NCBI RefSeq assembly: GCF_006494775.1
Contig: NZ_CP041146.1
Location: 1,798,001 to 1,862,000, forward strand
Length of the DNA: 64,000 bases
Direction of reading: 5' to 3'
DNA from: Nocardioides humi
GTDB taxonomy: Bacteria > Actinomycetota > Actinomycetes > Propionibacteriales > Nocardioidaceae
Shown in pieces: positions 25,677-44,168 of this stretch. The notes beneath the pieces are model-generated. The model was given only the letters and a program-made list of their open reading frames with translations. It made no database searches and was not told the DNA's origin. Numbering within the stretch: the stretch's first letter is position 1; every line of letters starts with the position of its first letter. Made by a program: the position numbers and the translations under genes.

Positions 25677-26138
25677 TCAGGACGCGGCGTAGGTGAGGTA
25701 GATCGACTCGCCCACCATCGCCGGTCGCTCCTGGTCCTTGATCTCGACCCGGAGCGCGACGCGGTACTGGACGCCGCCGTCGTCGCGGCGCACGCCCTCC
25801 GGGATCGAGGCGCTGAGCCGGATCTCCGCGTCGACCGGCACCGGCGAGGTGAATCTGACCTTCTCGAGGCCGTAGTTGGTGCCGCGGCCGTGGTCGGTGA
25901 TCACCATCAGCCGCTTGAGCATCGACGGGACGAGAGACAGCGTCAGGTAGCCGTGGGCGATCGTGCGGCCGAAGGGCCCGTCGGCCGCGCGGTCGGGGTC
26001 GACATGGATCCACTGGTGGTCGTCCGTCGCGACGGCGAAGGTGTCGATCCGGCCCTGCTCGATGCGCTGCCATGGCGACGAGCCGAGGTCGAGATCCCTC
26101 GCCTCGGCCAGCTCGGCGACGGTGATCTCCAGGGTCAT
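25677..26138 (-). CDS. MaoC family dehydratase (hot-dog (R)-hydratase)
   Basis: A 153-residue single hot-dog protein. DDHQWIHVDPDRA then GPFGRTIAHGYLTLSL is the hydratase-2 motif with the catalytic Asp/His pair; it hydrates trans-2-enoyl-CoA to the (R)-3-hydroxy form. It resembles the NodN/Rv0130-type group. It is divergent from the thioesterase gene at 26286, and the 147-base gap carries a strong inverted repeat that could regulate both. Confidence 0.88.
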   Translation of the reverse strand: MTLEITVAELAEARDLDLGSSPWQRIEQGRIDTFAVATDDHQWIHVDPDRAADGPFGRTIAHGYLTLSLVPSMLKRLMVITDHGRGTNYGLEKVRFTSPVPVDAEIRLSASIPEGVRRDDGGVQYRVALRVEIKDQERPAMVGESIYLTYAAS

Positions 26139-29458: not shown

Positions 29459-30253
29459 ATGGACAACTTCACCGACATCACCTACGAGGTCGAGAACGGC
29501 CTCGCCTGGATCACGATCAACCGCCCGGAGCGCTTCAACGCCTTCCGCGCCCAGACGGTCGACGAGCTGGTCCTGGCCTTCAAGCGGGCATGGGCGAGTC
29601 CCGAGGTCGGCACGATCTGCCTCACCGGCGCGGGCGAGAAGGCGTTCTGCGCCGGCGGCGACCAGAAGCAGCGGATGGAGACCGGCGACTACGGCCCGTC
29701 CCAGAGCGGGCTGTTCGAGGTCGAGGCGCTGCACCGGGTGATGCGCGACGTCCCCAAGCCCGTGATCGCCGCCGTCAACGGTCTCGCCATCGGCGGCGGC
29801 CACGTGCTCCACGTCCTCGCCGACCTGACGATCGCCGCCGACACCGCGAGCTTCGGCCAGAACGGCCCGCGGGTCGGCAGCTTCGACGCCGGGCTCGGCT
29901 CCGGCTATCTCGCGCGCGTCGTCGGCGAGAAGCGGGCGCGGGAGATCTGGTTCATGCTGCGTCGCCTCAGCGCGGAGGAGGCGCTCGACTGGGGCCTGGT
30001 CAACAAGGTCGTCCCCGCCGCCGAGCTCAAGGACGAGGTCCGCCGGTGGGCGGAGACCATGAACGCCTACTCCCCGACCGCCCTGAAAGTGCTCAAGCAG
30101 TCGTTCAACAGCGACACCGAGCACTTCGTCGCCATCGGCAACATGGCCATCACCACGCTCAAGCTGTTCGGCGAGATGCCCGAGGCCCAGGAGGGGATCA
30201 CCGCGTTCAACGAGAAGCGGCAGCCCGACTTCTCGCAGTACCGCGGGAACTGA
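29459..30253 (+). CDS. BadI/MenB-like crotonase (ring-acting acyl-CoA hydrolase or synthase)
   Basis: A 264-residue crotonase with the long conserved features of the MenB/BadI branch: ITYEVENGLAWITINRPERF, FCAGGDQKQR, FGQNGPRVGSFDAG then LGSGYLARVVGEKRAREIWF, SPTALKVLKQSFNSDTEH and EGITAFNEKRQPDFSQY. MenB closes the naphthoate ring. BadI hydrolytically opens 2-ketocyclohexane-carboxyl-CoA to pimeloyl-CoA. No other menaquinone gene is nearby, while an acyl-CoA dehydrogenase follows nine bases later and the Bcr-like genes lie 2.3 kb downstream, so the BadI role fits better. That choice is inference. Confidence 0.85.
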   Translation: MDNFTDITYEVENGLAWITINRPERFNAFRAQTVDELVLAFKRAWASPEVGTICLTGAGEKAFCAGGDQKQRMETGDYGPSQSGLFEVEALHRVMRDVPKPVIAAVNGLAIGGGHVLHVLADLTIAADTASFGQNGPRVGSFDAGLGSGYLARVVGEKRAREIWFMLRRLSAEEALDWGLVNKVVPAAELKDEVRRWAETMNAYSPTALKVLKQSFNSDTEHFVAIGNMAITTLKLFGEMPEAQEGITAFNEKRQPDFSQYRGN

Positions 30254-30262: not shown

Positions 30263-31399
30263 ATGCAGCTGGACGCCGAGCGGCTCGAGTTCGCCCGGGC
30301 GATCGAGGACTTCTGCCAGCGTGAGTACGGGACGCTCGCCCAGCGCGACGCCCTGACCGAGAACGACACCGTGGCGACCAACCACGAGATCCTGCGGAAG
30401 ATGTCGGACCTGGGCTGGCTCGGCGTCTCGCTGCCGGAGGAGTACGGCGGCGGTGGCGCCGGGTTCGTCGACGAGTGCGTCTTCATCGAGGAGGCGCACC
30501 GCGGCCTCACTCCCGGCCTGCTCGCCTACACGACCGGCCTCACCGCGGCGCAGACCTATCTCAAGTGGGGCAACGACGAGCAGCGGACGACGATCGTCTC
30601 GAACCTCGTGGCCGGCCGGATCGAGGCGATCGCGCTGTCCGAGCCCGGGACCGGCTCGGATCTCGGAGCGGTCCGCACCAAGGGCATCCGCGACGGCGAC
30701 GCGTACGTCATCGACGGCCAGAAGACCTGGATCTCGGTCGCTCACGTGGCCGAGCACATGCTGGTCCTGGTCCGCGAGGACGCCTCCGGGCCCAAGCACG
30801 ACGGGCTCACCCTGCTGATGGTGCCGACCGACACGCCCGGCATCGAGATGCGCGAGGTCCGCACCATGGAGGCGCGCACCTGCAACGACGTCTTCTTCTC
30901 CCAGGCCCGGGTCCCGGTGTCGGCCGTGGTCGGCGCTCCGGGCCAGGGCTGGAAGCAGCTGATGCGCGGCCTCAGCGTCGAGCGGATGATCATCGCGGCG
31001 TTCAGCATCGGCGCCGCACGCCGCTCCCTCGAGGACGCGATCGCGTACATGCAGCAGCGCGATGCGTTCGGGCAGCCGATCAGCACGTTCCAGGCGCTGC
31101 GCCATCGCGTCGCCGACCTGGCCACCGACATCGCCGTCACCCGGTCGTTCGTCTACGACGTGGCGCAGGCGATCGACGAGGGCCGGGAGGACCACCTGGC
31201 CCGCGAGTCGGCGATGGCCAAGATGCGGGCGACGGAGGTCGCCAAGAACGCCGCCCTCGAGGCGATGCAGCTGATGGGCGGCGCCGGCTACGCGCGGGAG
31301 TACGGCATGGAGTTCCAGGTCCGCCGCGCCCTGGCGCCGCCCATCTTCGGCGGGACCAACGAGATCCAGCGCGAGATCATCGCCAAGTCCCTGTTCTGA
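30263..31399 (+). CDS. Acyl-CoA dehydrogenase
   Basis: A 378-residue FAD flavoprotein. IALSEPGTGSDLGAVRT is the first signature, DGQKTWISVAHVAEHML the flavin region, EARTCNDVFFSQARVP the middle beta domain, MQLMGGAGYAREYGMEFQVR the second signature, and FGGTNEIQREIIAKSLF the C-terminus. A candidate catalytic Glu is in the YAREYGME region; the precise base needs an alignment. It is nine bases downstream of the BadI-like gene, so the pair forms one operon. In alicyclic acid degradation such an enzyme would make the cyclohexene-carboxyl-CoA step or oxidise the pimeloyl-CoA product. Confidence 0.92.
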   Translation: MQLDAERLEFARAIEDFCQREYGTLAQRDALTENDTVATNHEILRKMSDLGWLGVSLPEEYGGGGAGFVDECVFIEEAHRGLTPGLLAYTTGLTAAQTYLKWGNDEQRTTIVSNLVAGRIEAIALSEPGTGSDLGAVRTKGIRDGDAYVIDGQKTWISVAHVAEHMLVLVREDASGPKHDGLTLLMVPTDTPGIEMREVRTMEARTCNDVFFSQARVPVSAVVGAPGQGWKQLMRGLSVERMIIAAFSIGAARRSLEDAIAYMQQRDAFGQPISTFQALRHRVADLATDIAVTRSFVYDVAQAIDEGREDHLARESAMAKMRATEVAKNAALEAMQLMGGAGYAREYGMEFQVRRALAPPIFGGTNEIQREIIAKSLF

Positions 31400-31411: not shown

Positions 31412-32503
31412 TCAGGCGCCCACCGGCTCCGGGGCGGCGACGGACGATGCGAGGCGGCGGAGGATCTCCGCCGCCTCGCGTGCCATGCCCGGCACGAACT
31501 CGGCGACGTCGATCAGGTCGGTGATCGCCGAGGCCACCTGACCGGTCATCACCAGGCTGTCGGTCGTGTCGCCGGTGGTCTGCGCCCGCTGCATCGACTC
31601 GATCTTCCAGCGCACCATCTCGACCGGATCCTCCGGCAGCCCGGAGGCGCCGTGGGCGAGCAGCTGCTCCGAGGCGGCGTTGCGCAGCCCGCGACACGGC
31701 CCGTACACCCCGTCGAAGGCGACGTCGTCGCCCTCGGTGGCGTCGAGCAGCGCCTGGACGTACGCCGGGTGCCAGTCGCTGTTGTCCCGGCTGGTGATGA
31801 AGCGGGTCCCCATCGCGACGCCGTCGGCGCCCATGGCCAACGCCGCCGCGAGACCCCGGCCGTCCCGCGCACCACCGGTGAGCAGGACCGGGACGTCGAC
31901 GGCCTCGGTGACGCTCGGCACCAGCACGTAGGTGTGCACCTTGGCAGCCGGTGCGTGCCCACCCATCTCGAAGCCCGCCGCCAGGACGACGTCCACCCCG
32001 GCCTCGGCCGCCTTCACGGCCTGGCGGGTGGCCCCCACCTTGTGCTGGTGGACCATCCCCCCGTCCTTGATCATCGCGACGTAGTCGCCGGGGAACCCGG
32101 CCGAGGTCGTCATGACGGTGAGCCGGCGGGCGATCTCGCTGTCCGAGCGCCGCAGCTCCAGCACCATCCGGATGTAGACGTCGGTGAACGGCAGCACCCT
32201 GCCCGCCGCATCGACGCCGACCGGGATGTTCACCGCGAACGGCCGGTCGGTGAGGCCGGCGCACTCCTCGATGTGCTCCCGGAAGGTCCGGGCGCCGCTC
32301 TCGATGTCCTCCGGCATGCCCGGCATCGACACCGTGCCGAGCCCGCCCGCATTGGACACCGCGGCGGCGAGCCGCGGTGTCCGGAAGGGCCCGAGGCCCT
32401 CCTGCACGATCGGGTGCCGCACACCGACGAGGCGGGTCCACCTGTTGCTGATCGGGGCGGCGTCCGCCACCGGTCCGGCGCTTCCCAAGGGTTCACTGTT
32501 CAT
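31412..32503 (-). CDS. Nitronate monooxygenase family flavoprotein
   Basis: A 363-residue FMN-dependent TIM barrel of the 2-nitropropane dioxygenase/NMO family. HPIVQEGLGPFRTPRLAAAV, FAVNIPV, GFEMGGHAPA, VLLTGGARDGRGLAAALAMG and GVAMGTRFITS are the flavin- and phosphate-binding stretches. Related proteins occur in many fatty-acid and aromatic clusters, where they may act as enoyl reductases or detoxify nitronates. It is divergent from the BcrC-like gene, with a 68-base AT-richer gap that contains a TGTAGAAC element on the minus strand. Confidence 0.85.
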   Translation of the reverse strand: MNSEPLGSAGPVADAAPISNRWTRLVGVRHPIVQEGLGPFRTPRLAAAVSNAGGLGTVSMPGMPEDIESGARTFREHIEECAGLTDRPFAVNIPVGVDAAGRVLPFTDVYIRMVLELRRSDSEIARRLTVMTTSAGFPGDYVAMIKDGGMVHQHKVGATRQAVKAAEAGVDVVLAAGFEMGGHAPAAKVHTYVLVPSVTEAVDVPVLLTGGARDGRGLAAALAMGADGVAMGTRFITSRDNSDWHPAYVQALLDATEGDDVAFDGVYGPCRGLRNAASEQLLAHGASGLPEDPVEMVRWKIESMQRAQTTGDTTDSLVMTGQVASAITDLIDVAEFVPGMAREAAEILRRLASSVAAPEPVGA

Positions 32504-32571: not shown

Positions 32572-33750
32572 ATGGAGAGCTCGGACGAGACCAACGGAGC
32601 GGCAGCGCTCGACACCCTGCGGACGGCCGCCCGCGACCCGCGCGGATATGTCGGAAGGTGGCGCGCCGAGCACCCGGGACGGAAGGTCCTCGGGGTGCTC
32701 CCGATGAACTTCCCCCGCGAGCTCGCCCACGCGGCCGGCGTACTGCCGGTGATCGTCGCCGACGACCAGCAGCCGGTCACCGAGGGCCGCGCCTTCCTGC
32801 CGGAGTTCTACTGCGGATTCACCCGCAATCTCGCCGACCAGGCGGCCACCGGGCGCTTCGACCTGTACGACGGCCTCTTCGTCGCCGACCACTGCATCCA
32901 GCTGCTGGGGGCGACGGACATCGTCCGCGAGCTGGAGCCGCGCGCCCCCGTGTTCCTCGGGCAGCTGATCAGCTCCCTCAACGACATCTCGGCCGGCGCG
33001 AAGATCGCCGAGATGGTCGCCACGCTGCGCACGGAGGTCGAGTCCTTCGCCGGCCGGACGATCACCGACGACGCGCTGCGGGCCAGCATCCGCTCGTTCA
33101 ACCGCGATCGCGCACTGATGCGGCGGGTCTTCGACGCGCGGGCAGCCGGAGACACCTGCTTCTCGCCGGTCGAGCTGCAGGACGTCGTGGCGTCCGCGCA
33201 GGCGATGGATCCCGACGAGCACCACCGGCTGCTGTCGGCGGTGGTCGCCGCCCGCGAGCCCCGGCCGCGCGACGACCGGATCCGTGTCCACCTCTCCGGC
33301 CATCTGTGCCACGCGCCGCGCCGCGAGCTGCTCGAGGTGATCGAGGAGGCCGGCGCGGTGGTCGTCGACGACGACCTGTGGACCGGGCGGCGCTACCTGC
33401 AGGCGATGGTGGACGAGTCCACCCCACCGTTGGAGGCCATCGGCCGGTGGTACGCCGAACGCAATGTCGCCGTGCCGTGCCCCACCCGCGTCCAGCACGA
33501 CGTCGACTGGGACCGCTGGCTCCTCGACGCCGCCGAGCGCAGCGGCGCCGAGGCGGTCGTGCACCTGATGCCGAAGTTCTGCGAGCCGCACATGCTCTAT
33601 TACCCCGAGCTCCGCCGCGCCCTGGACACCGCGGGGCTCCCCCAGCTGCTCGTCGAGACCGAGCACGAGGGCATCCCGCTGGAGTCCTTCCGCACCCGTC
33701 TCGAGGCGCTCGTCGAGCGCACCCACCGCAATCGTCCCGCCTACGCCTGA
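32572..33750 (+). CDS. Benzoyl-CoA reductase/2-hydroxyacyl-CoA dehydratase subunit, BcrC/BadD-like
   Basis: A 392-residue protein of the HgdB/BcrC fold. These subunits bind [4Fe-4S]-type clusters and the acyl-CoA, and are reduced by an ATP-driven activase to form ketyl or aryl radicals. The start GVLPMNFPRELAHAAGVLPV is the family signature. Cluster-ligand candidates are Cys81 (EFYCGFTRN), Cys108 (ADHCIQLLG) and Cys337 (MPKFCEPHMLYYPEL). The length matches BcrC. It is the first of three genes, 13 bases before the BcrB-like gene. Whether it reduces a ring or dehydrates a 2-hydroxyacyl-CoA cannot be decided from sequence alone. Confidence 0.9.
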   Translation: MESSDETNGAAALDTLRTAARDPRGYVGRWRAEHPGRKVLGVLPMNFPRELAHAAGVLPVIVADDQQPVTEGRAFLPEFYCGFTRNLADQAATGRFDLYDGLFVADHCIQLLGATDIVRELEPRAPVFLGQLISSLNDISAGAKIAEMVATLRTEVESFAGRTITDDALRASIRSFNRDRALMRRVFDARAAGDTCFSPVELQDVVASAQAMDPDEHHRLLSAVVAAREPRPRDDRIRVHLSGHLCHAPRRELLEVIEEAGAVVVDDDLWTGRRYLQAMVDESTPPLEAIGRWYAERNVAVPCPTRVQHDVDWDRWLLDAAERSGAEAVVHLMPKFCEPHMLYYPELRRALDTAGLPQLLVETEHEGIPLESFRTRLEALVERTHRNRPAYA

Positions 33751-33763
33751 CCGAGGAGCACCC

Positions 33764-35113
33764 ATGACCGTCACGATGCCCACCACCACGACCACGCCGG
33801 ACCGCTCGCGGCGCCTCGCCGTCACCCGCGAGGGCGGCCGCATGATCGCCGAGTACTGGGACGAGCTGTTCACCGCGCGCGAGCGCGGCAAGCAGATCGT
33901 CTGGTACAACGGCGGCGCGCTCAACCCGATCTTCCAGGCGGCGGGGCTGGCCTGGTGCCACGGCGAGGCGTTCGCCGCCCGTCTCGCCGCCCAGCAGCTC
34001 GAGGGACCGGCGCAGCTGGCCGGCGCCGAGTACGGCTACAACGCGGAGCTGTGCTCCTACTCGCGCACGCACCTCGGCTGCGCGGTCCTCACCCTGCAGG
34101 GCGACGAGGGCGGCAGCACCGGGGTCGTCGGCATGCACGACCAGGCCGAGCTGGCCTCCCGCCTCCCGCGGCCGGACTTCTTCGTCAACAACTACGCCGG
34201 CTGCAGCACCGGCCAGCAGTGGGACGAGATCTCCTACCGGGTCTTCGACAAGGAGGTGCCGATCTTCAACATCTCCCACCCGTTCCTCTGGGGCAACAAG
34301 CCGGACGCCGGCTACCTCGCGGGCGAGGAGTGGGAGTCGGCCTCGCGCTACGTGCGCGACCAGCTCGTCGACCTCATCGCCTGGCTCGAGGAGCGGTCCG
34401 GCAACAGGTTCGACTGGGACCTGCTGCGCGAGTCGATGACCTACATCAAGCGTGCGGCCGAGCTGCGCCGCGAGGGTCTCGAGCTGTGCAAGGCCAAGCC
34501 CGCGCCCGCGACGTTCTGGGACTGGATCTCCTGCGTGGCCCCGATCAACTTCCTGCCCGGCGACCAGAGGCTGGTCGACTACTTCCAGGCCGTGAAGGAC
34601 GAGATCCAGGACCGCATCGACAGGGGCATCTCCGGCGTCGAGAACGAGCGGTACCGCATGTACTTCGACGGGATCATGAACTGGAACAAGCTCGGGTTCC
34701 TCTCCCGCAAGTTCGCCGAGCACGGTGTCGCGGTGCTCGCCGGCCGCTACATCCAGAACGCCTTCTGGCAGGAGCCGCAGCTGATCGACACCGACGACCC
34801 GCTGCTCGGCATGGCCCAGCACTACCTGCTGTGCCCGACGAACCACGGCACGAAGACCCTCGACTACCTCACGCTGCGCGACTGCGCGGAGTACGACGTC
34901 GACGGCATCGTCTTCCACTCGACGCGCACCTGCCGCGCCTTCACCGGCCCCCAGCGCCTGCTGGCCCGGTCGGCGCAGAACAACCTCGGCATCCCGTCGA
35001 TCTTCTTCGAGGGCGACGTCGCGGACGCCTCGTTCTACAAGGAGGAGATCCTCGAGAGCCGCCTCACCGCGATGTTGGAGGCCATCGACGTCAAGCGGGC
35101 GCAGGCGTCGTGA
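33764..35113 (+). CDS. Benzoyl-CoA reductase/2-hydroxyacyl-CoA dehydratase subunit, BcrB/BadE-like
   Basis: A 449-residue partner of the preceding subunit, with an N-terminal Thr-rich start and then REGGRMIAEYWDELFTARER. Conserved cysteines are in AELCSYSRTHLG (Cys97), NNYAGCSTGQQW (Cys147) and HSTRTCRAFTGPQ (Cys390), as expected for the BcrB-type subunit, which also contacts the substrate. A GAGGAG ribosome site precedes the ATG. Its stop codon overlaps the GTG of the activase gene. Such enzymes are normally oxygen-sensitive and found in anaerobes, so their presence here is notable. Confidence 0.9.
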   Translation: MTVTMPTTTTTPDRSRRLAVTREGGRMIAEYWDELFTARERGKQIVWYNGGALNPIFQAAGLAWCHGEAFAARLAAQQLEGPAQLAGAEYGYNAELCSYSRTHLGCAVLTLQGDEGGSTGVVGMHDQAELASRLPRPDFFVNNYAGCSTGQQWDEISYRVFDKEVPIFNISHPFLWGNKPDAGYLAGEEWESASRYVRDQLVDLIAWLEERSGNRFDWDLLRESMTYIKRAAELRREGLELCKAKPAPATFWDWISCVAPINFLPGDQRLVDYFQAVKDEIQDRIDRGISGVENERYRMYFDGIMNWNKLGFLSRKFAEHGVAVLAGRYIQNAFWQEPQLIDTDDPLLGMAQHYLLCPTNHGTKTLDYLTLRDCAEYDVDGIVFHSTRTCRAFTGPQRLLARSAQNNLGIPSIFFEGDVADASFYKEEILESRLTAMLEAIDVKRAQAS

Positions 35114-36048
35114 CCAGCTGGCGGCGCTACCTCGGGGTCGACCTCGGCTCCACGACGGCGAAGGCCGTCGTGGTCGCGGAGGACGGCGCGATCGTGTCCT
35201 CCAGCGCGATCGCCATGGGAGCCGTCTCACGGGCGGGCATGCAGAAGGCCGTCGACGCCGCCCTCGCCGGAGCGGAGATCGCCGCCGCCGACCTGAGCGG
35301 CACCGTGTCGACGGGCTACGGCCGGCGCCTGGTGCCGGGGGCGCAGCGCACCTTCACCGAGATCACCTGCCACGCGCGGGGCACGTCGGCGATGGTCCCC
35401 GGCTGCCGCCTCGTGATCGACATCGGCGGCCAGGACTCCAAGGCGATCACGGTGGACGAGGCGGGCTTCGTGCAGGAGTTCGCCATGAACGACCGCTGCG
35501 CGAGCGGCACCGGACGCTTCTACGAGGTCCTGGCCACCTCCGTCGAGGTGCCGATCGAGGAGCTGGGTGCGCTCGCGCTCCGGGGCAGCAACGACCTCGA
35601 GATCTCCACCATGTGCGCCACCTTCGCCGAGACCGAGATCGTGTCGCTGCTCGCCCAGGACGCCCCGGTGGCCGACATCGCGTCCTCGGTGCATCGCGCG
35701 ATCGCGGCGCGGACCCTGGCCCTGGTGGCCCAGGTCGGCCGGCACGAGCCCGTCGTGCTGACCGGCGGCGTCGCCCAGAACCCCGCCGCCGTCGAGTTCC
35801 TGGCCCGAGCACTCGGCACCGAGGTGCTGGTGCCCGAGCATCCGCAGATCACCGGCGCGTACGGCGCCGCGCTGCTCGCGCGCGACGCGGACCGGCGCGG
35901 TCGGCCGGTGGCGGACGACGTCGCCGGGGCGGACGGTCTGTTCCCCCGGCCGAGCGAGCCACACGCGTGCGGCAGCTGCGACGGCACCATCGGCGCCCCG
36001 GCGGGCCATCCGGTCGACCTGGGCCTGCCGCTGCGGCTGGGCGGCTGA
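35110..36048 (+). CDS. BadF/BcrD/HgdC-type ATPase, activator of the radical dehydratase/reductase
   Basis: A 312-residue member of the ASKHA ATPase fold: phosphate-1 motif GVDLGSTTAKAV, the DIGGQDSKAI motif and the adenosine motif LTGGVAQNPA. NDRCASGTGRF (Cys130) and STMCATFAETE (Cys169) supply the two ligands per subunit for a [4Fe-4S] cluster at the dimer interface. It hydrolyses ATP to push one electron into the BcrB/C-like component. Only one such gene is present, so it should form a homodimer as in 2-hydroxyacyl-CoA dehydratase systems, not the BcrA/D heterodimer. The C-terminus carries an extra CGSC (287-290) beyond the usual end. Confidence 0.92.
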   Translation: MTSWRRYLGVDLGSTTAKAVVVAEDGAIVSSSAIAMGAVSRAGMQKAVDAALAGAEIAAADLSGTVSTGYGRRLVPGAQRTFTEITCHARGTSAMVPGCRLVIDIGGQDSKAITVDEAGFVQEFAMNDRCASGTGRFYEVLATSVEVPIEELGALALRGSNDLEISTMCATFAETEIVSLLAQDAPVADIASSVHRAIAARTLALVAQVGRHEPVVLTGGVAQNPAAVEFLARALGTEVLVPEHPQITGAYGAALLARDADRRGRPVADDVAGADGLFPRPSEPHACGSCDGTIGAPAGHPVDLGLPLRLGG

Positions 36049-36068: not shown

Positions 36069-37691
36069 TCAGGCCGTGGTCTGCCGCACCTCGTCGAAGG
36101 TGAGGGAGCCCGCGTCGAACCGGTCGCGCAGCACGAACTTCTGGATCTTCCCGGTCGGCGTCATCGGGAGCTCCTCGACGAACGACCAGAAGGTCGGCGC
36201 CTTGTGCGGCGCGATCTGCTCGCGGACGAAGGCGGTCAGCTCGGCGACGCTCGGCCGGTCGTGCCCGGCGCGGATGCAGAGGACCGCACCCACCTGCTCG
36301 CCCCACCGCTCGTCGGGGACGCCGATGACCGCGGCCGTCTCGATCGCCGGGTGGTCGAGCAGGACGGCCTCGATCTCGGCCGGGTAGAGGTTCATGCCAC
36401 CCCGCACGATCATGTCCTTCGCACGGCCGGTGACCCGCAGGAAGCCACGCTCGTCCATCGAGCCCACGTCGCCCATGTGCAGCCAGCCGTCGGCGTCGAC
36501 GGTCATCGCGGTCTCACCCGGCATGTCGTAGAAGCCGAGCATGTTCTGGTAGCCGCGGACGCAGATCTCACCGGGCTCGCCGATCGGGAGCGGCTCCCCG
36601 CTGCCCAGCCCGGCGATCTTCACCTCCAGCTGCGGGAGCGGCTGGCCGACCGTGTCCGCCTGGTCCTCCGGGGCGTCCGTGATCCGGGTCTGGCTGATCA
36701 CCCCGTGCGTCTCGGTCTGCCCGAAGAGGATGGAGAACCGGCACCCCAGCTGTGCCATGGTCCGCCGCACCAGCGCCGCGGGGACGGAGGCCGCGCCGCT
36801 GAGGACCGTCTTGAACGAGCTCAGGTCGCGGGTCGCGGCGTCCGGGTGGTCGAGCAGCGCGATCAGCATGGTGGGGACGACGAGGGAGTGCGTGCCGCCG
36901 TACGTCTCGACGGCCTCCAGCAGCTGCGCGGGATCGAAGCCCGGGAGGAGCACGAAGGTGCCGCGCCTGGCCCAGGCGCCGAAGGAGGTCACCGCGCCCC
37001 CGCCGATGTGGTACATCGGCATCGCGTTGACGTAGACGTCGCCGTCGTCGAACCCGGCGCGCTCGGCGACGAACGTCGCCTCGTTGACCAGACCCATGTG
37101 GTGGAGCATCGCGCCCTTCGGGAAGCCGGTCGTGCCCGACGTGTACTGGACCTGGATCATGTCCCGCGGGTCGATCTCCGGCAGTGCCGTGGCCGGGTCG
37201 GCGCTCGCGAGGAAGGCACTCCAGTCGCCGAAGGAGTGCACGTCGCGTACCTCCGGGAGCTCGTCGCGGATTCCCTCGACCATGGTGCGCATGTCGAAGC
37301 CGCGGTGGTCGTCGACACAGAAGACGGCGACCGCGCCGGACTGCTGCAGGACGAACGCCATCTCCCGGGTCCGGTACGCCGGATTGAGGGCCACCAGCAC
37401 CATGCCGGCCATCGCCACGCCGTGCTGGAGCACGATCCAGTCGGCGCTGTTGGGCGCCCAGACCGCGATCCGGTCGCCTCGCGCGTAGCGCTGGAGCAGG
37501 GCGCGCGCCGCCCGCTCGGCGTCCGCCACCAGCTCGGCGTAGCTCCACGTCCGCCGCAGCTCCGGGTCCGGCACGCAGTCGACCAGCGCCAGTCGGTCCG
37601 GGACCGTGGCCGCTGCGTTCCGCAGCACTTCGCACACGGTGACCGCGCGCACTTCGCCGGGCTCCGCCGGCCAGTAGGAGGTCTTCATCAT
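36069..37691 (-). CDS. AMP-binding acyl-CoA ligase
   Basis: A 540-residue, full-length ligase with VQYTSGTTGFPKGA as P-loop, FGQTETHGV, GYQNMLGFYDMPGETA, the hinge GRAKDMIVRGGMNLYPAEIE and the catalytic Lys in TPTGKIQKF. It resembles medium-chain or aryl FadD/LcfB-like enzymes. The ATG pair at 37691/37688 follows AGGAG. It is convergent with the activase gene (20-base gap) and divergent from the Tyr-less SDR gene. By context it probably activates the acid fed to the Bcr-like system. Confidence 0.9.
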   Translation of the reverse strand: MMKTSYWPAEPGEVRAVTVCEVLRNAAATVPDRLALVDCVPDPELRRTWSYAELVADAERAARALLQRYARGDRIAVWAPNSADWIVLQHGVAMAGMVLVALNPAYRTREMAFVLQQSGAVAVFCVDDHRGFDMRTMVEGIRDELPEVRDVHSFGDWSAFLASADPATALPEIDPRDMIQVQYTSGTTGFPKGAMLHHMGLVNEATFVAERAGFDDGDVYVNAMPMYHIGGGAVTSFGAWARRGTFVLLPGFDPAQLLEAVETYGGTHSLVVPTMLIALLDHPDAATRDLSSFKTVLSGAASVPAALVRRTMAQLGCRFSILFGQTETHGVISQTRITDAPEDQADTVGQPLPQLEVKIAGLGSGEPLPIGEPGEICVRGYQNMLGFYDMPGETAMTVDADGWLHMGDVGSMDERGFLRVTGRAKDMIVRGGMNLYPAEIEAVLLDHPAIETAAVIGVPDERWGEQVGAVLCIRAGHDRPSVAELTAFVREQIAPHKAPTFWSFVEELPMTPTGKIQKFVLRDRFDAGSLTFDEVRQTTA

Positions 37692-37736
37692 CGTCCGCTC
37701 CTGTTGCCCTGTCCTATGGTCGTCGATCACCCGTCG

Positions 37737-37752
37737 AGTGACCCGCGTCACT
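37737..37752. promoter_or_regulatory. CRP/GlxR-like operator
   Basis: AGTGACCCGCGTCACT is a near-perfect repeat of the form TGTGA-N6-TCACA used by actinobacterial CRP-type regulators. It lies in the 137-base divergent region between the CoA ligase and the SDR. A similar site precedes the paralogous SDR at 47868. Confidence 0.5.
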
Positions 37753-37828: not shown

Positions 37829-38617
37829 ATGCCCGTCCCGCTCGTCCGCAGCCACGCCGACTCCGCTGTCCTCATCGCCGGCGGCACCTCCGGTGTCGGC
37901 CTCGCCACCGCCGTGGCCTTCACCGATGCGGGCGTACGACGCATCGCCCTGCTGGGCCGCAACCCCGACCGCGGCGCGGCCGCACGCCAGCAGGTCGCCG
38001 ACCACTGCCCGGACGCCCGGGTCGAGTTCCTGCCCTGCGATGCGGGCGAGCTGACGCAGGTCGTCGACGCGGTCGGCAGCGCCCATGAGCTCCTCGACGG
38101 ACTCGACGTGCTGGTCAGCTCCACCACGACGGCGTACCGCCCCGACCTCCTGCACCGCACCGACCCGGCGGACCTCGAGCGCATCCTCGTCGGCCAGGCC
38201 GTGCCGCCGATGCTGCTGACCCGCGTCGTATTGCCCTACCTGCAGGAGCAGGGCGGCGGCAGCATCGTCAACATCGCCTCCGACGCCGCCAAGGTCCCCA
38301 CGCCGGGCGAGGCCGCGCTCGGTGCCGCCATGGCCGCGATCGTCGTCTTCAGCCGCGTCGCCGCGCTCGAGGCCAAGCGCGACGGCGTGCGCGTCAACGT
38401 GCTCACGCCGTCCCTGATCGCGGGGACGGCGACCGCGGCCAACGTCCTGCGCGACGGCTTCAGCAGGAAGCTGTTCGAGAAGGCGGCCGGCCAGGCGCAC
38501 CTGGGCGTCGCCGAGCCCGCCGACCTCGCGGCGATGGCGGTGTTCCTCGGCGGACCGGCCGCTGCGCGCGTCACGGGGCAGGCGATCAGCGTGAACGGCG
38601 GGGTCTCGATCGCCTGA
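37829..38617 (+). CDS. SDR-fold protein lacking the catalytic Tyr and Lys
   Basis: A 262-residue Rossmann protein. The cofactor loop AGGTSGVG is intact and the end VTGQAISVNGGVSIA is typical of BadH-like SDRs. Ser151 of IVNIASDAAK is present, but the YxxxK site is Leu164 and Met168 (PTPGEAALGAAMAAIVV), and the NNAG motif is replaced by SSTTT. It keeps the fold but cannot use the standard mechanism. A close relative with the same changes is encoded at 47004-47798. It may bind a CoA ester or act by another chemistry. It is downstream of a CRP-like site and divergent from the CoA ligase. Confidence 0.85.
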   Translation: MPVPLVRSHADSAVLIAGGTSGVGLATAVAFTDAGVRRIALLGRNPDRGAAARQQVADHCPDARVEFLPCDAGELTQVVDAVGSAHELLDGLDVLVSSTTTAYRPDLLHRTDPADLERILVGQAVPPMLLTRVVLPYLQEQGGGSIVNIASDAAKVPTPGEAALGAAMAAIVVFSRVAALEAKRDGVRVNVLTPSLIAGTATAANVLRDGFSRKLFEKAAGQAHLGVAEPADLAAMAVFLGGPAAARVTGQAISVNGGVSIA

Positions 38618-38647: not shown

Positions 38648-39550
38648 TCAGGCCGACTCGTCCACGATCTGCCAGAAGCGGGCGTGGGCCCTGCGCGCCC
38701 ACCTCCGCCGGCGCTCGCGCAGCAGGGCAGCCGCCTCCCGTCCCACCCACTCCGGGAGAAGCGCCGACGGCAGCTGCGGGTCCCTGCGCATGAACCGCTG
38801 CTGGAGGTTGAGCAGGTCCAGGTAGGTGAGCAGGACGGCGTCGGGACCGTCGGGCTCGGGGGCGTCGGCCTCCTGGTCGATGAAGCGCCGGTACTGCGCG
38901 GCGAGCTCGGTCAGGTCCCACGACCGGTCGACCAGCTGAGCATCCGTCATGCCCACTCCCGCGGTGGGGCCGGTGACGGCCACCGCGGTGTCCTCCAGGC
39001 CCAGATCGGCGATCAGCCGCTGGAGCTCGGGCGCGCGCTCGTTGTGGGGGCTGACCCACAGCCCCGGCGTGGGGTTGCCCATCCCGAGCCAGTCGAGGCC
39101 GCCGTACAGGCGCTTCCGGGTGGTGCGCTGCTGCTGGGGCACGCTGACATACAGGAAGAGCCAGCGCCGGTCCCATCCGTCGTCGGCGGCCAGGTAGGTC
39201 TCGGAGCGCCGCACGCCCTCGGCCACCAGCTCCCGGCCGTGGCCGGCCAGCTGCCAGCGGACCGACCGGCCGACACGCTCGCGCTCCAGCCAGCCGGCGG
39301 CCGCCGACCGCGCCAGCACCTGGCGGCCGGCGTGGTCCTCGATCCCCAGCCCGCCCAGCACGCGGAGCAGCGCCGTCGTCCATGCCCCCTCGGGACGGTC
39401 GGGCAGCATCTCGCCGGCCATCGTCAACAGCAGGGAACGTGCGCTCGGCGGGGCAGCAGGGGCTGCCCACCCCGCTGGCTCGGCAGTACCAGTCCATCGG
39501 CCATGAGCACATGCAATCAGCCCGGCGCGCCCGGAGAGCGCAGGGTCCAC
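38648..39550 (-). CDS. PaaX family transcriptional regulator
   Basis: PaaX represses phenylacetate-degradation genes and is released by phenylacetyl-CoA. The N-terminal winged helix (TTALLRVLGGLGIEDHAGRQ then VLARSAAAGWLERERVG), the central PaaX domain (RRWLFLYVSVPQQQRTTRKR) and the C-terminal domain (PEWVGREAAALLRERRRRWA) are all present. About 300 residues is normal. The first 40 residues from the GTG at 39550 are poorly conserved, so the true start may be further in. It lies downstream of the FadR-type regulator on the same strand and may sense an aryl-CoA made by this cluster. Confidence 0.85.
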   Translation of the reverse strand: MDPALSGRAGLIACAHGRWTGTAEPAGWAAPAAPPSARSLLLTMAGEMLPDRPEGAWTTALLRVLGGLGIEDHAGRQVLARSAAAGWLERERVGRSVRWQLAGHGRELVAEGVRRSETYLAADDGWDRRWLFLYVSVPQQQRTTRKRLYGGLDWLGMGNPTPGLWVSPHNERAPELQRLIADLGLEDTAVAVTGPTAGVGMTDAQLVDRSWDLTELAAQYRRFIDQEADAPEPDGPDAVLLTYLDLLNLQQRFMRRDPQLPSALLPEWVGREAAALLRERRRRWARRAHARFWQIVDESA

Positions 39551-39580: not shown

Positions 39581-40426
39581 TCACCCGCGCTCCGCGCCGG
39601 TCCAGTCGAGAACGCTGCCCACCTCCTCCCCCAGCCCGTCGACATAGGCCTGGACATGTCGCTCCATCCGCCGGCGCGCGACCTGGCGGTCTCCGCGGCG
39701 GACGGCGGCCGTGATCGCCTCGTGGGCGCGACAGGTGTCGGCCCGGACCTGCGCGTCGACCGTGCCGACATAGCCGGTCGAGTCGTAGATGAGCTCCGCC
39801 AGGGCCTCCATCAGCCCGGACAGCAGCTCGTTGCCCGAGGCCCGAGCGACGGCCATGTGCCACTCCACGTTGGCGCGCAGGAAACGGCTCACATCGCTGG
39901 TCTCGCGCATCAGCCGGTTGCTCGCCTCCAGCTCCCGCAGTGCGGGCTCGGTACGCCGTACCGCCGCCAGGCCGGCGCAGGGAGGCTCGATGGTCGCCCG
40001 CGTCTGCAGGAGCGCGGACAGCGAGACCTCGCTGCGGCGCACCACGAGGCGTACCGAGGCCGCGAGCTGGTGGCCGGTCGGACGGCGGACGACCGCCCCA
40101 CCGCCCCGCCCGGCCCGGATCTCGACGAAGCCACGCACCTCGAGCACCCGCAGCGCCTCGCGCACGGACGTCCTGCTCAGTCCGGTCTGCACCACCAGGG
40201 CTCGCTCCGGCGGGAGGGCCATCCCCTCGCGGAGCTCGCCCCTGCTGATCCTGGCCGCCAGGTCCTCGGCCAGCACGTCGCTGGCCTTGGGGACGTGGAG
40301 CGGCCGCAGCAGTGCCGGGCCTGTCGGATCGGGGCCTGTCGGATCGGGGCCGGTCGGATCGGGGCCTGTCGGATCGGGCGGGGGTGGGACCCTGCCGGTG
40401 GTGCTGCTCATCGGACTCACCCCCAC
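39581..40426 (-). CDS. FadR/GntR-family regulator with FCD domain
   Basis: After a repetitive Pro-Asp-Pro-Thr-Gly leader (residues about 18-37), a winged helix follows (ASDVLAEDLAARISRGELRE then PPERALVVQTGLSRTSVREA). The FCD domain has metal-site His residues in ANVEWHMAVARASGN, CRAHEAITAA and RRMERHVQAY. Such proteins bind TGGTnnnACCA-type repeats and respond to acyl-CoAs or carboxylates. Sites of exactly this type occur in several promoters of the window, making this the best candidate regulator. It closes the Liv operon that starts upstream, 27 bases after the binding-protein gene. A start at 40411 (MSSTTG) is also possible. Confidence 0.88.
   Translation of the reverse strand: MGVSPMSSTTGRVPPPPDPTGPDPTGPDPTGPDPTGPALLRPLHVPKASDVLAEDLAARISRGELREGMALPPERALVVQTGLSRTSVREALRVLEVRGFVEIRAGRGGGAVVRRPTGHQLAASVRLVVRRSEVSLSALLQTRATIEPPCAGLAAVRRTEPALRELEASNRLMRETSDVSRFLRANVEWHMAVARASGNELLSGLMEALAELIYDSTGYVGTVDAQVRADTCRAHEAITAAVRRGDRQVARRRMERHVQAYVDGLGEEVGSVLDWTGAERG
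40317..40376. repeat. Four 15-base tandem repeats inside the FadR-type gene
   Basis: Units of GGGCCTGTCGGATCG (the third unit has one change) occupy 40317-40331, 40332-40346, 40347-40361 and 40362-40376. On the coding (minus) strand they encode repeated Pro-Thr-Gly-Pro-Asp steps in the N-terminal leader, before the DNA-binding domain. The copy number is likely to vary. Confidence 0.9.
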
Positions 40427-40453: not shown

Positions 40454-41674
40454 TCAGCCGAGCCGGCACGCCGGGTTGGCCTCGGGGTTGTTCTCCGACG
40501 CCGGGATCGCCGCGGTCGCGACGAGCGCGAGCGAGCCGTCGTCGGTCTTCTCCACCGTGCCGACGTAGGTCGGCGCCTCGATCTGGTGGTCCTCCGCCCG
40601 CAGCGTGACCTGGCCCTGGATGGAGTCGAAGCTCAGGCCCTCGAGGGCCTTCGCCACGTCGCCGGGGGCGATGCTGCCGGCCTTCTCGATGCCGGCGAAG
40701 ATCGCCTGCATGCCGAGGTAGCCGTTGCCGATGTTCTCCGTCGGGGCCGAGCCGTTCTTCGCCGTGTAGGCCTCGACGAACGCCTTCGTGCCCGGGGTGT
40801 CGGCGGTGGGGATCCAGGAGTTGGTGCCGAGCGCACCCACCAGCCGCTCGTCGTCGAGGGCGGCGAGCGTGGTCGACGACAGGCCGGTGTTGACCAGGAC
40901 CTTGTCGTACTTCTGGAGCACGCCGAACTGGAGCGCCTGCTTGAGGAAGTTGATCGCGTCGCTGCCGGCGAGCGACACCACGAGGCCGCCCTCGCCGCCG
41001 AGCTGGCTCAGGTAGCTGCCGAAGTCCGTCGTGCCGAGCGGCGAGAAGAGCTTGGCGTTGAGCTTGCTGCCGTCGGCCTCGAGGGTCTTCTCGACACCAC
41101 TGGTGCTGGCCTGGCCGAAGGAGTAGTCCGCGGCGATGCTGTCCCACTGCGGCAGGTCCTCCTCGGTCAGCCAGTAGGCCAGCGTGTTCACGCCGGCGCT
41201 GTCGTTGGCGGTGACCCGGAAGTAGCGCGAGGTGCAGGACTTCCCGGTGAGGTCGTCGCTCTGCCCCTGCGTGCCGATCATCAGTGCGTCCCACGCCTCG
41301 AGCTTCGGCGTGACGGCGGCCATCTCGGGCGACGACACCATGCCGATCACGAAGCGGGCGTTCTTCTCCTGCACCAGTCGCTGCGTCGCCGCGAGCGCAC
41401 CCTCCGGGGTGCCGAGGTCGTCGGCGAACTCCAGCTCGATCCGGTGGCCGTCGATGCCACCGTTGGCGTTCGCCTCGTCCGCCGCGAACTGGATGCCCTG
41501 GCGCTGCTCCTCTCCGTAGGCGGCGTAGGGACCGGACTCCGGCGTGACGACGGCGATCCGGATGGGACCGTCGTCGTCCTGCTTGCCGCTGTTGGCGGCG
41601 CCGCCCGAGCAGCCGGCGGTGGCGATCATCAGCCCGCTGAGGGCGGCGCCGAGGAGGACACGCTTGTTCTTCAT
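40454..41674 (-). CDS. Liv-type ABC transporter substrate-binding lipoprotein
   Basis: A 406-residue type I periplasmic-binding protein with a lipoprotein signal (positively charged start, hydrophobic core, lipobox IATAGC with Cys22). IRIAVVTPESGPYAAYGEE, ANGGIDGHRIELEFADD and DYSFGQASTSGVEKTL are typical of the LivK/amide-binding family. It catches the substrate outside the membrane for the permeases encoded upstream in the same operon. Similar proteins in aromatic clusters bind benzoate-like or hydroxylated acids, not amino acids. A GGAGAAACC ribosome site precedes the ATG. Confidence 0.9.
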   Translation of the reverse strand: MKNKRVLLGAALSGLMIATAGCSGGAANSGKQDDDGPIRIAVVTPESGPYAAYGEEQRQGIQFAADEANANGGIDGHRIELEFADDLGTPEGALAATQRLVQEKNARFVIGMVSSPEMAAVTPKLEAWDALMIGTQGQSDDLTGKSCTSRYFRVTANDSAGVNTLAYWLTEEDLPQWDSIAADYSFGQASTSGVEKTLEADGSKLNAKLFSPLGTTDFGSYLSQLGGEGGLVVSLAGSDAINFLKQALQFGVLQKYDKVLVNTGLSSTTLAALDDERLVGALGTNSWIPTADTPGTKAFVEAYTAKNGSAPTENIGNGYLGMQAIFAGIEKAGSIAPGDVAKALEGLSFDSIQGQVTLRAEDHQIEAPTYVGTVEKTDDGSLALVATAAIPASENNPEANPACRLG

Positions 41675-41716
41675 TGGTTTCTCCGTTCAGGTGGGCCGGT
41701 CGGCCGGTCCAGCGGG

Positions 41717-42415
41717 TCAGACCCCGACGAGCTCGCGCAGCGTCTCGGTCGTGGTCTCTTCGATGCGGCCCTCGGCGACCGTCTCCCCCTTGAGCAGTAC
41801 GGCGTACCGGTCGGCGAGACGAGTGACGAGGTCCAGGCGCTGCTCGATCAGCAGCATCGACGTCCCTGCCGCCTTGAGGCCGGCGAGGCAGTCCCCGAGA
41901 AGATCGATGACGACGGGCGCGAGTCCTTCGGACGGCTCGTCGAGGAGCAGGACGGTCGGGTTCGACATCAGCGCCCGGCCGATGGCGAGCATCTGCTGCT
42001 GTCCGCCGCTCAGATGCGTGCCGAGCGAGCCGCGGCGCTCCGCCAGGTCGGGGAACATCTCGTAGACGGCTGCGAGGCCCCACGGTCCCTTGCGCCGGGG
42101 CGCGGAGCCGACCACGAGGTTCTCCTCGACCGTCAGCGACGACAGGATCCAGCGCCCCTGCGGCACCAGGGCCGCCCCGAGGGCGGCGGCCTCGTGCGGC
42201 GCCCGGCCACGCAGTCGCCTGCCGCCGATGGTGATCGCTCCGCCACGCAGGTGCGCGATGCCGAACATCGTGTTGAGACTGGTGGTCTTGCCGACTCCGT
42301 TGGGACCGAGCAGGGCGAAGGACTCGCCCTCCGCGACCTCGAGGTCCAGACCGTCGAGGATCAGGGCGTCGTCGTAGTAGGCGCGCACGCCGTCGAAGGC
42401 CAGGACGCTGCTCAT
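41717..42415 (-). CDS. Liv-type ABC transporter ATP-binding protein (LivF-like)
   Basis: A 232-residue ATPase: Walker A GPNGVGKTTSLN, signature HLSGGQQQMLAIGRALM, Walker B VLLLDEPSEGLAP and the LivF-type end YAVLLKGETVAEG. Its ATG overlaps the LivG-like stop (ATGA). It powers the LivH/LivM-like permeases of this operon together with the LivG-like subunit. Confidence 0.93.
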   Translation of the reverse strand: MSSVLAFDGVRAYYDDALILDGLDLEVAEGESFALLGPNGVGKTTSLNTMFGIAHLRGGAITIGGRRLRGRAPHEAAALGAALVPQGRWILSSLTVEENLVVGSAPRRKGPWGLAAVYEMFPDLAERRGSLGTHLSGGQQQMLAIGRALMSNPTVLLLDEPSEGLAPVVIDLLGDCLAGLKAAGTSMLLIEQRLDLVTRLADRYAVLLKGETVAEGRIEETTTETLRELVGV

Positions 42416-43110
42416 GCCGCGCTCCGGCCGAGGTAGGCCTCCACGACCCTCGGGTCGCGCCGGACCTCCTGCGGTCTCCCGTCGGCGATGACCGCGCCCT
42501 GCTCGAGGACCGTCAGCCGGTCGCAGACCCGGTAGACCACCTCGAGGTGGTGCTCGACGAGGACGACCGTCATGCCCCGCTCGCGCACGAGGCCGGCGAG
42601 GTGGTCGGCCAGCGCGATGCTCTCCTCCCGGGAGAGGCCTGCGGCCGGCTCGTCGAGGAGCACGAGGTCGGGTGCTCCGAGCAGGGCCAGCGCGATGTCG
42701 ACGCGCCGCTGCTCGCCGTACCCGATCTCGGAGGGGGTGAGCGGGAGCGACGGGCCGAGCGCCAGGGCGGCGACCACGGCGTCGACGTCCTGCTCCCCGA
42801 CCAGGCGTCCGGCGACGTCCAGCTGATCGGCGACCGTCAGGTCCGGGTAGACGCTGATCCGCTGGAAGGAGCGGGCGATGCCGAGATGCCTGCGGCGCGG
42901 CGCGGCCATCCTGGTGATGTCGCGCTCACGGAACCGGACCGACCCGCTCGTGGGGCGCTGCCGACCGGAGATCAGGTCGATGCAGGTGCTCTTGCCGGCG
43001 CCGTTGGGGCCGATCAGGCCGTGGATGGACCCCTCGGCCACGTCGAGGGACACCTGGTCGACGGCCTTCACGCTGCCGTAGGCGAAGGACAGGTCATCGA
43101 GCTGCAGCAC
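42412..43110 (-). CDS. Liv-type ABC transporter ATP-binding protein (LivG-like), perhaps part of a LivM-LivG fusion
   Basis: A 232-residue ATPase with Walker A GPNGAGKSTCIDL, the LivG hallmark RSFQRISVYPDLTV, signature IGYGEQRRVDIALALL and Walker B LVLLDEPAAGLS. A GTG at 43110 gives a normal-sized protein, but the frame stays open upstream through a Pro-rich stretch (AEPPPVAVPEGTGPVPVPVP). That stretch looks like an interdomain linker following the LivM-like domain. If one base is missing near 43195, the two are a single fusion polypeptide. Confidence 0.9.
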   Translation of the reverse strand: MLQLDDLSFAYGSVKAVDQVSLDVAEGSIHGLIGPNGAGKSTCIDLISGRQRPTSGSVRFRERDITRMAAPRRRHLGIARSFQRISVYPDLTVADQLDVAGRLVGEQDVDAVVAALALGPSLPLTPSEIGYGEQRRVDIALALLGAPDLVLLDEPAAGLSREESIALADHLAGLVRERGMTVVLVEHHLEVVYRVCDRLTVLEQGAVIADGRPQEVRRDPRVVEAYLGRSAA

Positions 43111-44168
43111 GGCGGCCTCCTGGGGCGGGACGGGGACGGGGACGGGTCCGGTTCCTTCCGGGACCGCGACGGGAGGCGGCTCCGCGCTGCCTCGAAACCG
43201 CGCTCCAGCAGCTCGACACAGCCGCCGGGCGCGACCAGGACCACCACGATCAGCACCAGTCCGATCACCGCCTGGTAGTGATTGCCGCTGCCGGCGAGGT
43301 AGCTCTGCAGCACGACGAACAGGACCGCGCCGAGCGGGGGCCCGAGGACGCTGCGCACGCCGCCGATCACCGCGACGATGAGCGCGATGCCCGACGTCGA
43401 CCAGAACAGCGCCGAGAGCGAGATGAAGCTGGTCGTCACCAGGTTGAGCGTTCCTGCGACGCCGGCGACGGCGCCCGAGACGGTGAAGGCCAGCACCCGC
43501 GGCCAGTAGGTGGCGTATCCGGAGAAGCGCATCCGCTCGGCGTTGTCGCGGATCGACGCGAGCCGCCGGCCCCACATGGTGCGGCTCAGCGCCCAGAGCG
43601 CCGCGACGACCGTCATCAGCACGCCCCACACCAGCGGCCACGCGTCGACCGGGTTCCCGTACATCACGACGTCCTTGCCGAGCAGGGTGCCCTTGAGCTG
43701 CACGTTCAGGCCGTCGGAGCCGCGCGTGATCGAGTGGAGCTGACCGCCGGCGACCCAGACCAGCATCCCGATGGCGAGCGTGAGCATCGCGAAGGCGATG
43801 CCGGGCACCCTGATGGTCACCAGTCCGACCACGAACGCCGCGACGGTGCCGCAGGCGACACCCGCCGCCAGGGTCAGGCCGATCGGCAGGTCCGCCTCCT
43901 GGGCGACGTACGACGTGGCGTAGCCGGCGATGCCGTAGAACGCCGCGTGCCCGAAGCTGAGCTGACCGGTCTGGCGCAGCAGCCAGCCGATGCTGAGGGC
44001 GAGCAGGCCCAGCACCACGGCCTGCTGAGCCAGCTGGAGCTGGTAGAGGGAGACGACCCAGGGTGCGCCCAGCCCCGCCGCCGCGAGGCCCGCCCAGGCG
44101 ACCGCCTGCCAGCGGGCCGCGCGGTTGCGCCTGCGCAGGGTCGCGGCGACGGTCGGCTGCCCGCTCAC
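43068..44168 (-). CDS. Liv-type ABC transporter permease (LivM-like)
   Basis: A membrane protein with about nine to ten hydrophobic segments. LSFGHAAFYGIAGYATSYVA is the family signature, ASIRDNAERMRFSGYATYWP the cytoplasmic EAA-like loop, and VIGGVRSVLGPPLGAVLF the last conserved region. The GTG overlaps the LivH stop (GTGA). The frame as given ends with an unusual basic tail (SRLPSRSRKEPDPSPSPS) that overlaps the LivG gene by 43 bases. This may be an artefact of a missing base that hides a LivM-LivG fusion; the combined length of 1757 is one base short of whole codons. Confidence 0.9.
   Translation of the reverse strand: MSGQPTVAATLRRRNRAARWQAVAWAGLAAAGLGAPWVVSLYQLQLAQQAVVLGLLALSIGWLLRQTGQLSFGHAAFYGIAGYATSYVAQEADLPIGLTLAAGVACGTVAAFVVGLVTIRVPGIAFAMLTLAIGMLVWVAGGQLHSITRGSDGLNVQLKGTLLGKDVVMYGNPVDAWPLVWGVLMTVVAALWALSRTMWGRRLASIRDNAERMRFSGYATYWPRVLAFTVSGAVAGVAGTLNLVTTSFISLSALFWSTSGIALIVAVIGGVRSVLGPPLGAVLFVVLQSYLAGSGNHYQAVIGLVLIVVVLVAPGGCVELLERGFEAARSRLPSRSRKEPDPSPSPSRPRRPPCCSSMTCPSPTAA

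Follow-up and report, generated by a model that had tools for sequence, protein, structure and literature searches.

A BcrC-BcrB-activase gene module of apparently aerobic Actinomycetes and Proteobacteria as a candidate ATP-driven reductase of p-alkylbenzoyl-type CoA esters

Class I benzoyl-CoA reductases (BCRs), namely BcrCBAD, BzdNOPQ and MbdONQP, combine two HGD-D subunits with a BadF-type ATPase; they work near the lowest biological potentials and are tied to anoxic habitats. To our knowledge, aerobes as a rule open aromatic rings with oxygen. The nearest other described systems are the 2-hydroxyacyl-CoA dehydratases (HADs), such as (R)-2-hydroxyisocaproyl-CoA dehydratase HadBC with its activator HadI, and the double-cubane cluster proteins (DCCPs) with their reductase DCCP-R. 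Here we describe a three-gene module of this superfamily at 32572..36048 of a 64,000-nucleotide stretch of the Nocardioides humi genome ("the window" for the whole stretch; positions 1,798,001 to 1,862,000 of contig NZ_CP041146.1). On balance we lean, with modest confidence, towards reading the trio as an ATP-driven two-subunit radical acyl-CoA reductase that dearomatises p-alkylbenzoyl-type CoA esters in aerobes. The likely substrate class is p-alkylbenzoyl-CoA, that is, 4-isopropylbenzoyl-CoA derived from p-cymene, or p-toluoyl-CoA.

The module begins with a C subunit (BcrC/BzdN/HadC-like, 392 aa; 32572..33750, + strand), followed after 13 bp by the B subunit, the proposed catalytic one (BcrB/BzdO/HadB-like, 449 aa; 33764..35113, +). 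The stop of the B gene is overlapped by 4 bp by the start of a BadF/HgdC-type activase, an ATPase of 312 aa with a GTG start and a C-terminal CxxC tail (35110..36048, +). Pfam HGD-D (PF06050) matches both subunits (E 1.5e-59 and 8.2e-52), and the activase matches BcrAD_BadFG (PF01869, E 5.6e-57) and scores above the TIGR00241 cut-off. The genome, one contig of 6.22 Mb, has two PF06050 matches and one PF01869 match, all in the module; the Pfam matches and the whole-genome family searches rule out chance open reading frames (ORFs). The ferredoxin motif CxxCxxCxxxC occurs in none of the window ORFs of 55-1500 aa. A preliminary description of this DNA had reported three close or overlapping genes for two cluster-binding subunits and a BadF-type activase, and had remarked on the single activase and the lack of a ferredoxin gene in view; the ORFs, their Pfam matches and their conserved cysteines bear out the former, and the lone PF01869 match in the genome and the empty motif search of window ORFs the latter.

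The two reductase subunits belong to a clade of their own. In both subunit trees, a new clade of 29 rows each from Actinomycetes and Proteobacteria has support 100/100 and falls outside the Thauera-type BCRs, the Mbd BCRs, the HadBC dehydratases (the HAD rows form their own group) and the double-cubane proteins. Regarding its deep placement, only the pairing of the C subunit with coriobacterial-type pairs is disfavoured (p 0.013); the value for the B subunit is p 0.15. Curated models agree on the distance from studied enzymes. The BCR models TIGR02260/02263/03190/03191 give 100.7, 151, 130.6 and 72.5 bits for cut-offs of 421-487, the HAD models NF052455 and NF052456 give 129.5 and 119 bits for cut-offs of 750 and 700, and the double-cubane model NF040772 gives 118.7 and 44.4 bits for a cut-off of 350. 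The subunits thus reach 16-36% of the NCBIfam BCR and HAD equivalog cut-offs, and we reject membership in the curated BCR, HAD or double-cubane equivalogs, all scores being below cut-off. Identity to BzdNO and MbdNO is 18-27% in structure alignments; the lists of solved chains cover those ranked by Foldseek. Two different ATPase subunits, as in BcrAD and MbdPQ, are not found, the genome having its one PF01869 match; given this, the separate clade and the low scores, we do not file the module as a member of the class I BCRs. From sequence, it most likely works like a class I BCR with an HAD-type activator. The preliminary description had set it apart both from standard class I BCRs and from obvious fermentative dehydratases, a verdict that the separate clade and the scores uphold, and the phylogeny places the proteins inside no studied clade. 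That description also took the system to be undescribed; among the titles and abstract openings listed for the open-licence literature that we searched, we found no account of the clade or of any BCR-like enzyme taking part when aerobes degrade p-cymene, nor any paper on a 3-methylbenzoyl-CoA reductase.

For the cluster cysteines, we aligned 33 B and 33 C sequences including those of the window, chosen from 120 + 120 listed homologues and the fetched loci. In the B subunit, C97, C147, C390, E68 and Y99 are invariant in 33/33 sequences and align with C95, C128, C380, E65 and Y97 of BzdO, the cluster of which holds the catalytic water according to the accessible part of its report (PMC11971306). 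Two BzdO residues are not kept: His131 corresponds to Gly150, and Trp46 to Gly51 in one alignment and to Ala52 in another. In the C subunit, C81, C108 and C337 are invariant in 33/33 and align with BzdN C73, C100 and C327. Loss of the cluster cysteines in a proper alignment, which would have spoken against the preliminary description, is thus not seen in either subunit. The C subunit also has an invariant C303 at the position of BzdN C293, a double-cubane ligand, where HadC too has a cysteine. BzdN C36 becomes Pro44, and C263 becomes Trp, Tyr, Phe or His in the clade rows, so that two of the six [8Fe-9S] ligands of BzdN (C36/73/100/263/293/327) are missing. Thauera-type BcrC rows and MbdN likewise lack the C36 and C263 ligands, so the full BzdN set does not define all BCRs.

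These positions bear on the idea that the module reduces small or unusual substrates, as double-cubane cluster proteins do. It shares with DCCP/DCCP-R the superfamily, the activase type and the Cys303 position, and the invariance of that cysteine speaks for the idea. We nevertheless consider it very improbable, since the similarity to double-cubane proteins is remote (35 and 82 bits), the ligands C36 and C263 are missing, and the module, unlike DCCPs, has two different subunits and lies amid genes of CoA-ester catabolism.

Other motifs place the subunits nearer to BCRs. An invariant C246 of the C subunit sits in a short insertion, SGHxCHxP, with counterparts GSFCEQPP in Thauera-type BcrC and GGFCETPP in MbdN. 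By regular expression, this insertion cysteine is present in 29/29 clade rows, in 6/6 Thauera-type BcrC and MbdN, and in 0/33 others (4 HAD, 19 coriobacterial-type, 7 double-cubane, BzdN and 2 others); the motif was picked after the alignment had been viewed. Its strict form occurs in 110/120 listed C-subunit homologues. Since C81, C108, C337, C303 and C246 are all invariant, the aligned sequences give the C subunit a five-cysteine mosaic, with some positions of BCR/Mbd and others of Bzd/double-cubane type. In the B subunit, YxxC(S/F)T is found in 26/29 clade rows and 6/7 BCR rows, MbdO and BzdO being without it, and CSTGQQW in 120/120 listed homologues. The HAD-type CCNNxC at the second cluster cysteine is present in 4/4 HAD and 18/19 coriobacterial-type rows and in 0/29 clade rows. 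The activase ends in a C-x2-3-C tail in 22/22 aligned rows (two of which represent one gene), a possible extra metal site or redox switch; the nearest solved chain to it is 4eht (220 bits).

The main competitor is a 2-hydroxyacyl-CoA dehydratase, in which a CoA-transferase or ligase would make a 2-hydroxyacyl-CoA, one electron from the activase would drive ketyl-radical dehydroxylation by B-C, and beta-oxidation would follow. The single activase is nearest to the HAD activator, and the B subunit is nearest to HadB both by profile and by fold. In several loci a family III CoA-transferase, a short-chain dehydrogenase/reductase (SDR) and an acyl-CoA dehydrogenase are nearby, which resembles Fld and Had gene sets. 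Yet the insertion cysteine follows BcrC and MbdN and the B motif follows BcrB, neither of them HAD; compared with HadBC/HadI, B is without CCNNxC, C has the extra insertion cysteine, and the setting is a catabolic island with a ring hydrolase and, in relatives, a P450. The SDR is without the Tyr and Lys of classical alcohol dehydrogenases, and aerobes can in general oxidise ordinary 2-hydroxy acids without ATP. The P450-linked genes described below would, in addition, give ring carboxylic acids without a 2-hydroxyl. We therefore judge a dehydratase unlikely, though the leading alternative in our weighing. The likeness to class I BCRs, on which the reductase reading builds, extends beyond the cluster cysteines, catalytic Glu and insertion cysteine to the CoA ligase and BadI-like neighbours; the differences are the separate clade, one activase versus two, and a P450 in the gene context.

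The clue to the substrate comes from a cytochrome P450 of CYP108 type, which we searched for in 20 module genomes or records (E at most 1e-90). It is present in 10/12 actinobacterial genomes or records, from Nocardioides, Nocardia, Pseudonocardia, Rhodococcus and Rhodococcoides, the linked copies having 63-100% identity. All ten lie on the contig of the module within about 34 kb, eight of them at 6-33 kb and those of N. alni and N. jiangxiensis, where contigs were paired by length, also close. Such closeness has a random-placement p of 0.002-0.008 per single chromosome, in seven genomes that are related to each other; the value concerns placement alone. We read nine of the ten linked stretches, which hold genes for a ferredoxin (9/9), an alcohol dehydrogenase (ADH, 9/9), an aldehyde dehydrogenase (ALDH, 7/9) and a ferredoxin reductase (6/9). 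In R. jostii and R. kyotonense, genes for the P450, a [2Fe-2S] ferredoxin, a ferredoxin reductase and an ADH lie between two modules, with an ALDH too in R. jostii. Compared with solved chains, the R. jostii P450 reaches 681 bits with P450tol and 464 with P450terp. N. miyunensis has only a ferredoxin gene, a small ORF and genes of CaiB, PaaX and LuxR type between the P450 and the module. In R. globerulus, CYP108N12 starts p-cymene degradation, and the carbon that it oxidises in p-cymene, limonene and p-xylene is the C7 methyl, according to the accessible parts of two papers (PMC11279926, PMC11889516). The linked P450, ferredoxin, ADH and ALDH genes of the relatives look similar to that pathway, which those parts follow as far as oxidation to the alcohol; the window genome is without such an operon. 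Among proteobacteria, 2/8 have a CYP108-type P450 (42-49% identity), on contigs other than that of the module. The Novosphingobium colocasiae island (contig G308:C15) encodes a P450 with just 26% identity to the CYP108 type.

Further clues lie downstream of the ring. Genes for a thiolase, a CoA-transferase, a 3-hydroxy-3-methylglutaryl-CoA (HMG-CoA) lyase and a BadI/MenB-type hydrolase are clustered in R. ruber, R. jostii and P. halophobica, those of the latter two being 64-92% identical to R. ruber; this company of lyase, transferase and thiolase beside the hydrolase fits a 4-alkyl ring. A Rieske motif appears in 0/793 called genes, from a simple caller that misses some genes, CoA-transferases for example. 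We also considered a steroid C/D-ring pathway, with its FadD3-, IpdC- and EchA20-like gene types, and left it, no search aimed at it having been made, because the CYP108 linkage is the more specific lead.

Several observations weigh against a p-alkylbenzoyl-CoA reductase. The single activase resembles that of dehydratases. Neither the N. humi genome nor the Blastococcus metagenome-assembled genome (MAG) has a CYP108-type P450, and the part of the window at 16000-25500, which corresponds to the site of the CYP108 genes in close relatives, is taken up by a luciferase-like monooxygenase (LLM) flavin enzyme and further catabolic genes. Beyond the three genomes named above, a search of seven more regions, the window among them, turned up no HMG-CoA lyase. 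Against a purely reductive route stand dioxygenases described in published work (PMC4097962, PMC11881993): Pseudomonas is known to use a p-cumate dioxygenase, and in Rhodococcus strains C1 and WAY2 nahA1-type dioxygenase genes are induced by p-cymene. The absence of a linked P450 from the N. humi and Blastococcus genomes and from the proteobacterial loci also favours a dearomatising reductase for another aryl-CoA (benzoyl-, polycyclic or heteroaryl-), in which case the P450 operon would serve a terpene pathway of its own within the shared island. The occurrence of three paralogous pairs per contig in three proteobacterial genomes, suggestive of several substrates, points the same way. Against this stand the linkage of P450 and module in ten actinobacterial genomes or records and the few genes between them in N. 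miyunensis, and we regard it as rather improbable. On the p-alkylbenzoyl-CoA reading, a window without the P450 genes and without the HMG-CoA-lyase gene pair implies that the strain probably imports the acid, for which its genes offer two LIV-type ABC sets, and that its exact substrate may differ from p-cumate.

What the data establish directly is the genes, the cysteines and Glu68, the clade and the gene linkage. The substrate, the reaction, each step with its place in the order, the electron donor and growth in air are deduced, and we propose the following order of steps. The CoA ligase would make the aryl-CoA. The activase, presumably homodimeric, would take electrons from reduced ferredoxin and, with ATP, pass them to the C-subunit cluster; the six POR_N matches in the genome could be ferredoxin-reducing enzymes. 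The [4Fe-4S] cluster of the B subunit, with a water ligand beside Glu68, would supply the ring with an electron and a hydrogen atom, by analogy with the mechanism put forward for BzdNO. The SDR without YxxxK would reduce or otherwise handle the dienoyl- or enoyl-CoA, and hydratase and dehydrogenase steps would lead to a 2-oxo ester, to be cleaved by the BadI/MenB-type crotonase. One round of beta-oxidation could then give 3-alkylglutaryl-CoA, and dehydrogenation and hydration an HMG-CoA analogue, which HMG-CoA lyase, CoA-transferase and thiolase would finish where their genes are present. The chain from a 4-alkyl ring by way of 3-alkylglutaryl-CoA to the HMG-CoA analogue is inferred from known pathway chemistry.

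The genes around the module are consistent with CoA-ester catabolism. An acyl-CoA ligase (cluster 4; 36069..37751, -; PF00501, E 1.6e-87) is a conserved neighbour, and an SDR-fold protein without YxxxK (37829..38617, +) a constant partner. Gene calling over 18 loci finds the SDR family in 16/18, a cluster 4 or 5 CoA ligase in 17/18, a PaaX-type regulator in 9/18 and a CaiB-type transferase in 7/18; the activase is found by tblastn in 13/17 fetched loci. In the window SDRs and 19 further rows, YxxxK occurs in 0/21 and TPGE..G..MA(A/G)I in 21/21; at the SDR site G-x-x-M-A-A/G-I replaces YxxxK, immediately preceded by conserved SDAx(K/R) and TPGE. Lacking YxxxK, the SDR is not a textbook alcohol dehydrogenase; our guess is an enoyl or dienoyl reductase. 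Upstream are the BadI/MenB-type crotonase, the proposed ring-opening hydrolase (29459..30253, +; badI 313 bits for a cut-off of 467.6, menB TIGR01929 302 for 342.7), with relatives in R. ruber, R. jostii, R. kyotonense and P. halophobica; an acyl-CoA dehydrogenase adjoining it (30263..31399, +; PF00441/PF02770/PF02771); and, divergent from the module, a nitronate monooxygenase (NMO)/FabK-type flavoprotein (31412..32503, -; PF03060, E 1.6e-45), which is 88-90% identical in Nocardioides Root190 and J54 and has a relative in the R. kyotonense island. Synteny with J54 and Root190 runs from a MaoC-type hydratase gene (25677..26138, -; PF01575, 89-90%) through the ring hydrolase, acyl-CoA dehydrogenase and NMO to the module. 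Family searches return the CoA ligase, crotonase, acyl-CoA dehydrogenase and Bac_luciferase-type (LLM) enzyme as the preliminary description had named them; epoxide hydrolase at 20671-22167 is that description's label alone. Downstream come a PaaX-type regulator (38648..39550, -; PF07848/PF20803/PF08223), a GntR/FCD regulator (39581..40426, -), a branched-chain-type ABC importer with binding protein, two ATPases and permease (40454..45019, -; PF13458, PF00005, PF02653), a second acyl-CoA ligase (cluster 5; 45140..47011, -), a second SDR without YxxxK (47004..47798, -), an APH-family (phosphotransferase) protein (50136..51197, -; PF01636), found in five island regions, and a family III CoA-transferase of CaiB type (52861..54150, -; PF02515). 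In several loci, a molybdopterin oxidoreductase of DMSO reductase type adjoins the module (L022 19385-21547, L018 11385-13544, L026, the Burkholderiales island and the R. jostii island, where an N-terminal piece is called). The neighbourhood survey, a step named in the preliminary description, thus finds the ligase and SDR as conserved partners, the clade in many genera and the P450 link in ten relatives.

We collected 17 loci from genome contigs (18 with the window). Actinobacterial loci are from Nocardioides, Pseudonocardia (two nearly identical), Blastococcus (MAG), Nocardia and Rhodococcus/Rhodococcoides, and proteobacterial loci from Burkholderiales, Rhizobiales, Paracoccus, Sphingopyxis, Rhodoferax and Novosphingobium; the organisms are understood to live aerobically. 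A plasmid search matched 13 records, five at at least 47% identity, and the module is plasmid-borne in R. ruber, S. macrogoltabida (two), Rhodobacteraceae QY30 and Azoarcus KH32C. Of 296 Actinomycetota sampled for spread, 101 encode a PF06050 protein of some kind; the listed positives all come from other classes except N. humi itself, so the module is patchy in its own class. Two or three clade-like pairs are found in 8/16 module genomes or records, a count that leaves aside R. jostii C23 and Azoarcus 627k, whose pairs are distant, and the third Rhodoferax pair is not on the tree. Three old paralogue types, one pair each, share one contig in a Burkholderiales MAG, Novosphingobium colocasiae and a Rhizobiales genome (loci L092-L093, L083-L085 and L086-L089).

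The searches also brought up more distant arrangements. A Rhizobium leguminosarum plasmid (L024 9887-15315) has a distant HGD-D pair with two activases near sodium symporter, rhodanese-like and sulfate permease genes, and from this setting the pair may be a sulfur-related reductase. The Novosphingobium ES2-1 and Croceicoccus marinus plasmids (L025, L027) have a lone B-like protein, its third cluster cysteine missing in the alignment, among CoA-transferase, CapA and TRAP transporter genes. The Azoarcus KH32C plasmid (L101 10674-16481) has a second HGD-D pair and activase, and near them a gene for a YfhL-type 4Fe-4S dicluster ferredoxin.

Taken as one joint claim, which we put forward tentatively and at somewhat less than an even chance, the module would represent a third class of ATP-driven aryl-CoA reductase, found in air-grown Actinomycetes and Proteobacteria and dearomatising p-cymene-type acids. 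It would combine a BcrCB-like reductase, its C subunit having the mosaic cysteine set, with a single HadI-like activase that carries the CxxC tail, and in some Proteobacteria three paralogues would act in one pathway. If true, it would be an exception to the rule of oxygen-dependent ring opening in aerobes and a second route for plant p-cymene in air, and a Birch-type biocatalyst from air-grown cells would come within reach. It would also add a new branch to a family of enzymes described up to now chiefly in organisms that live without oxygen, one in which the rings of plant terpene acids would be broken by electrons and not by oxygen.

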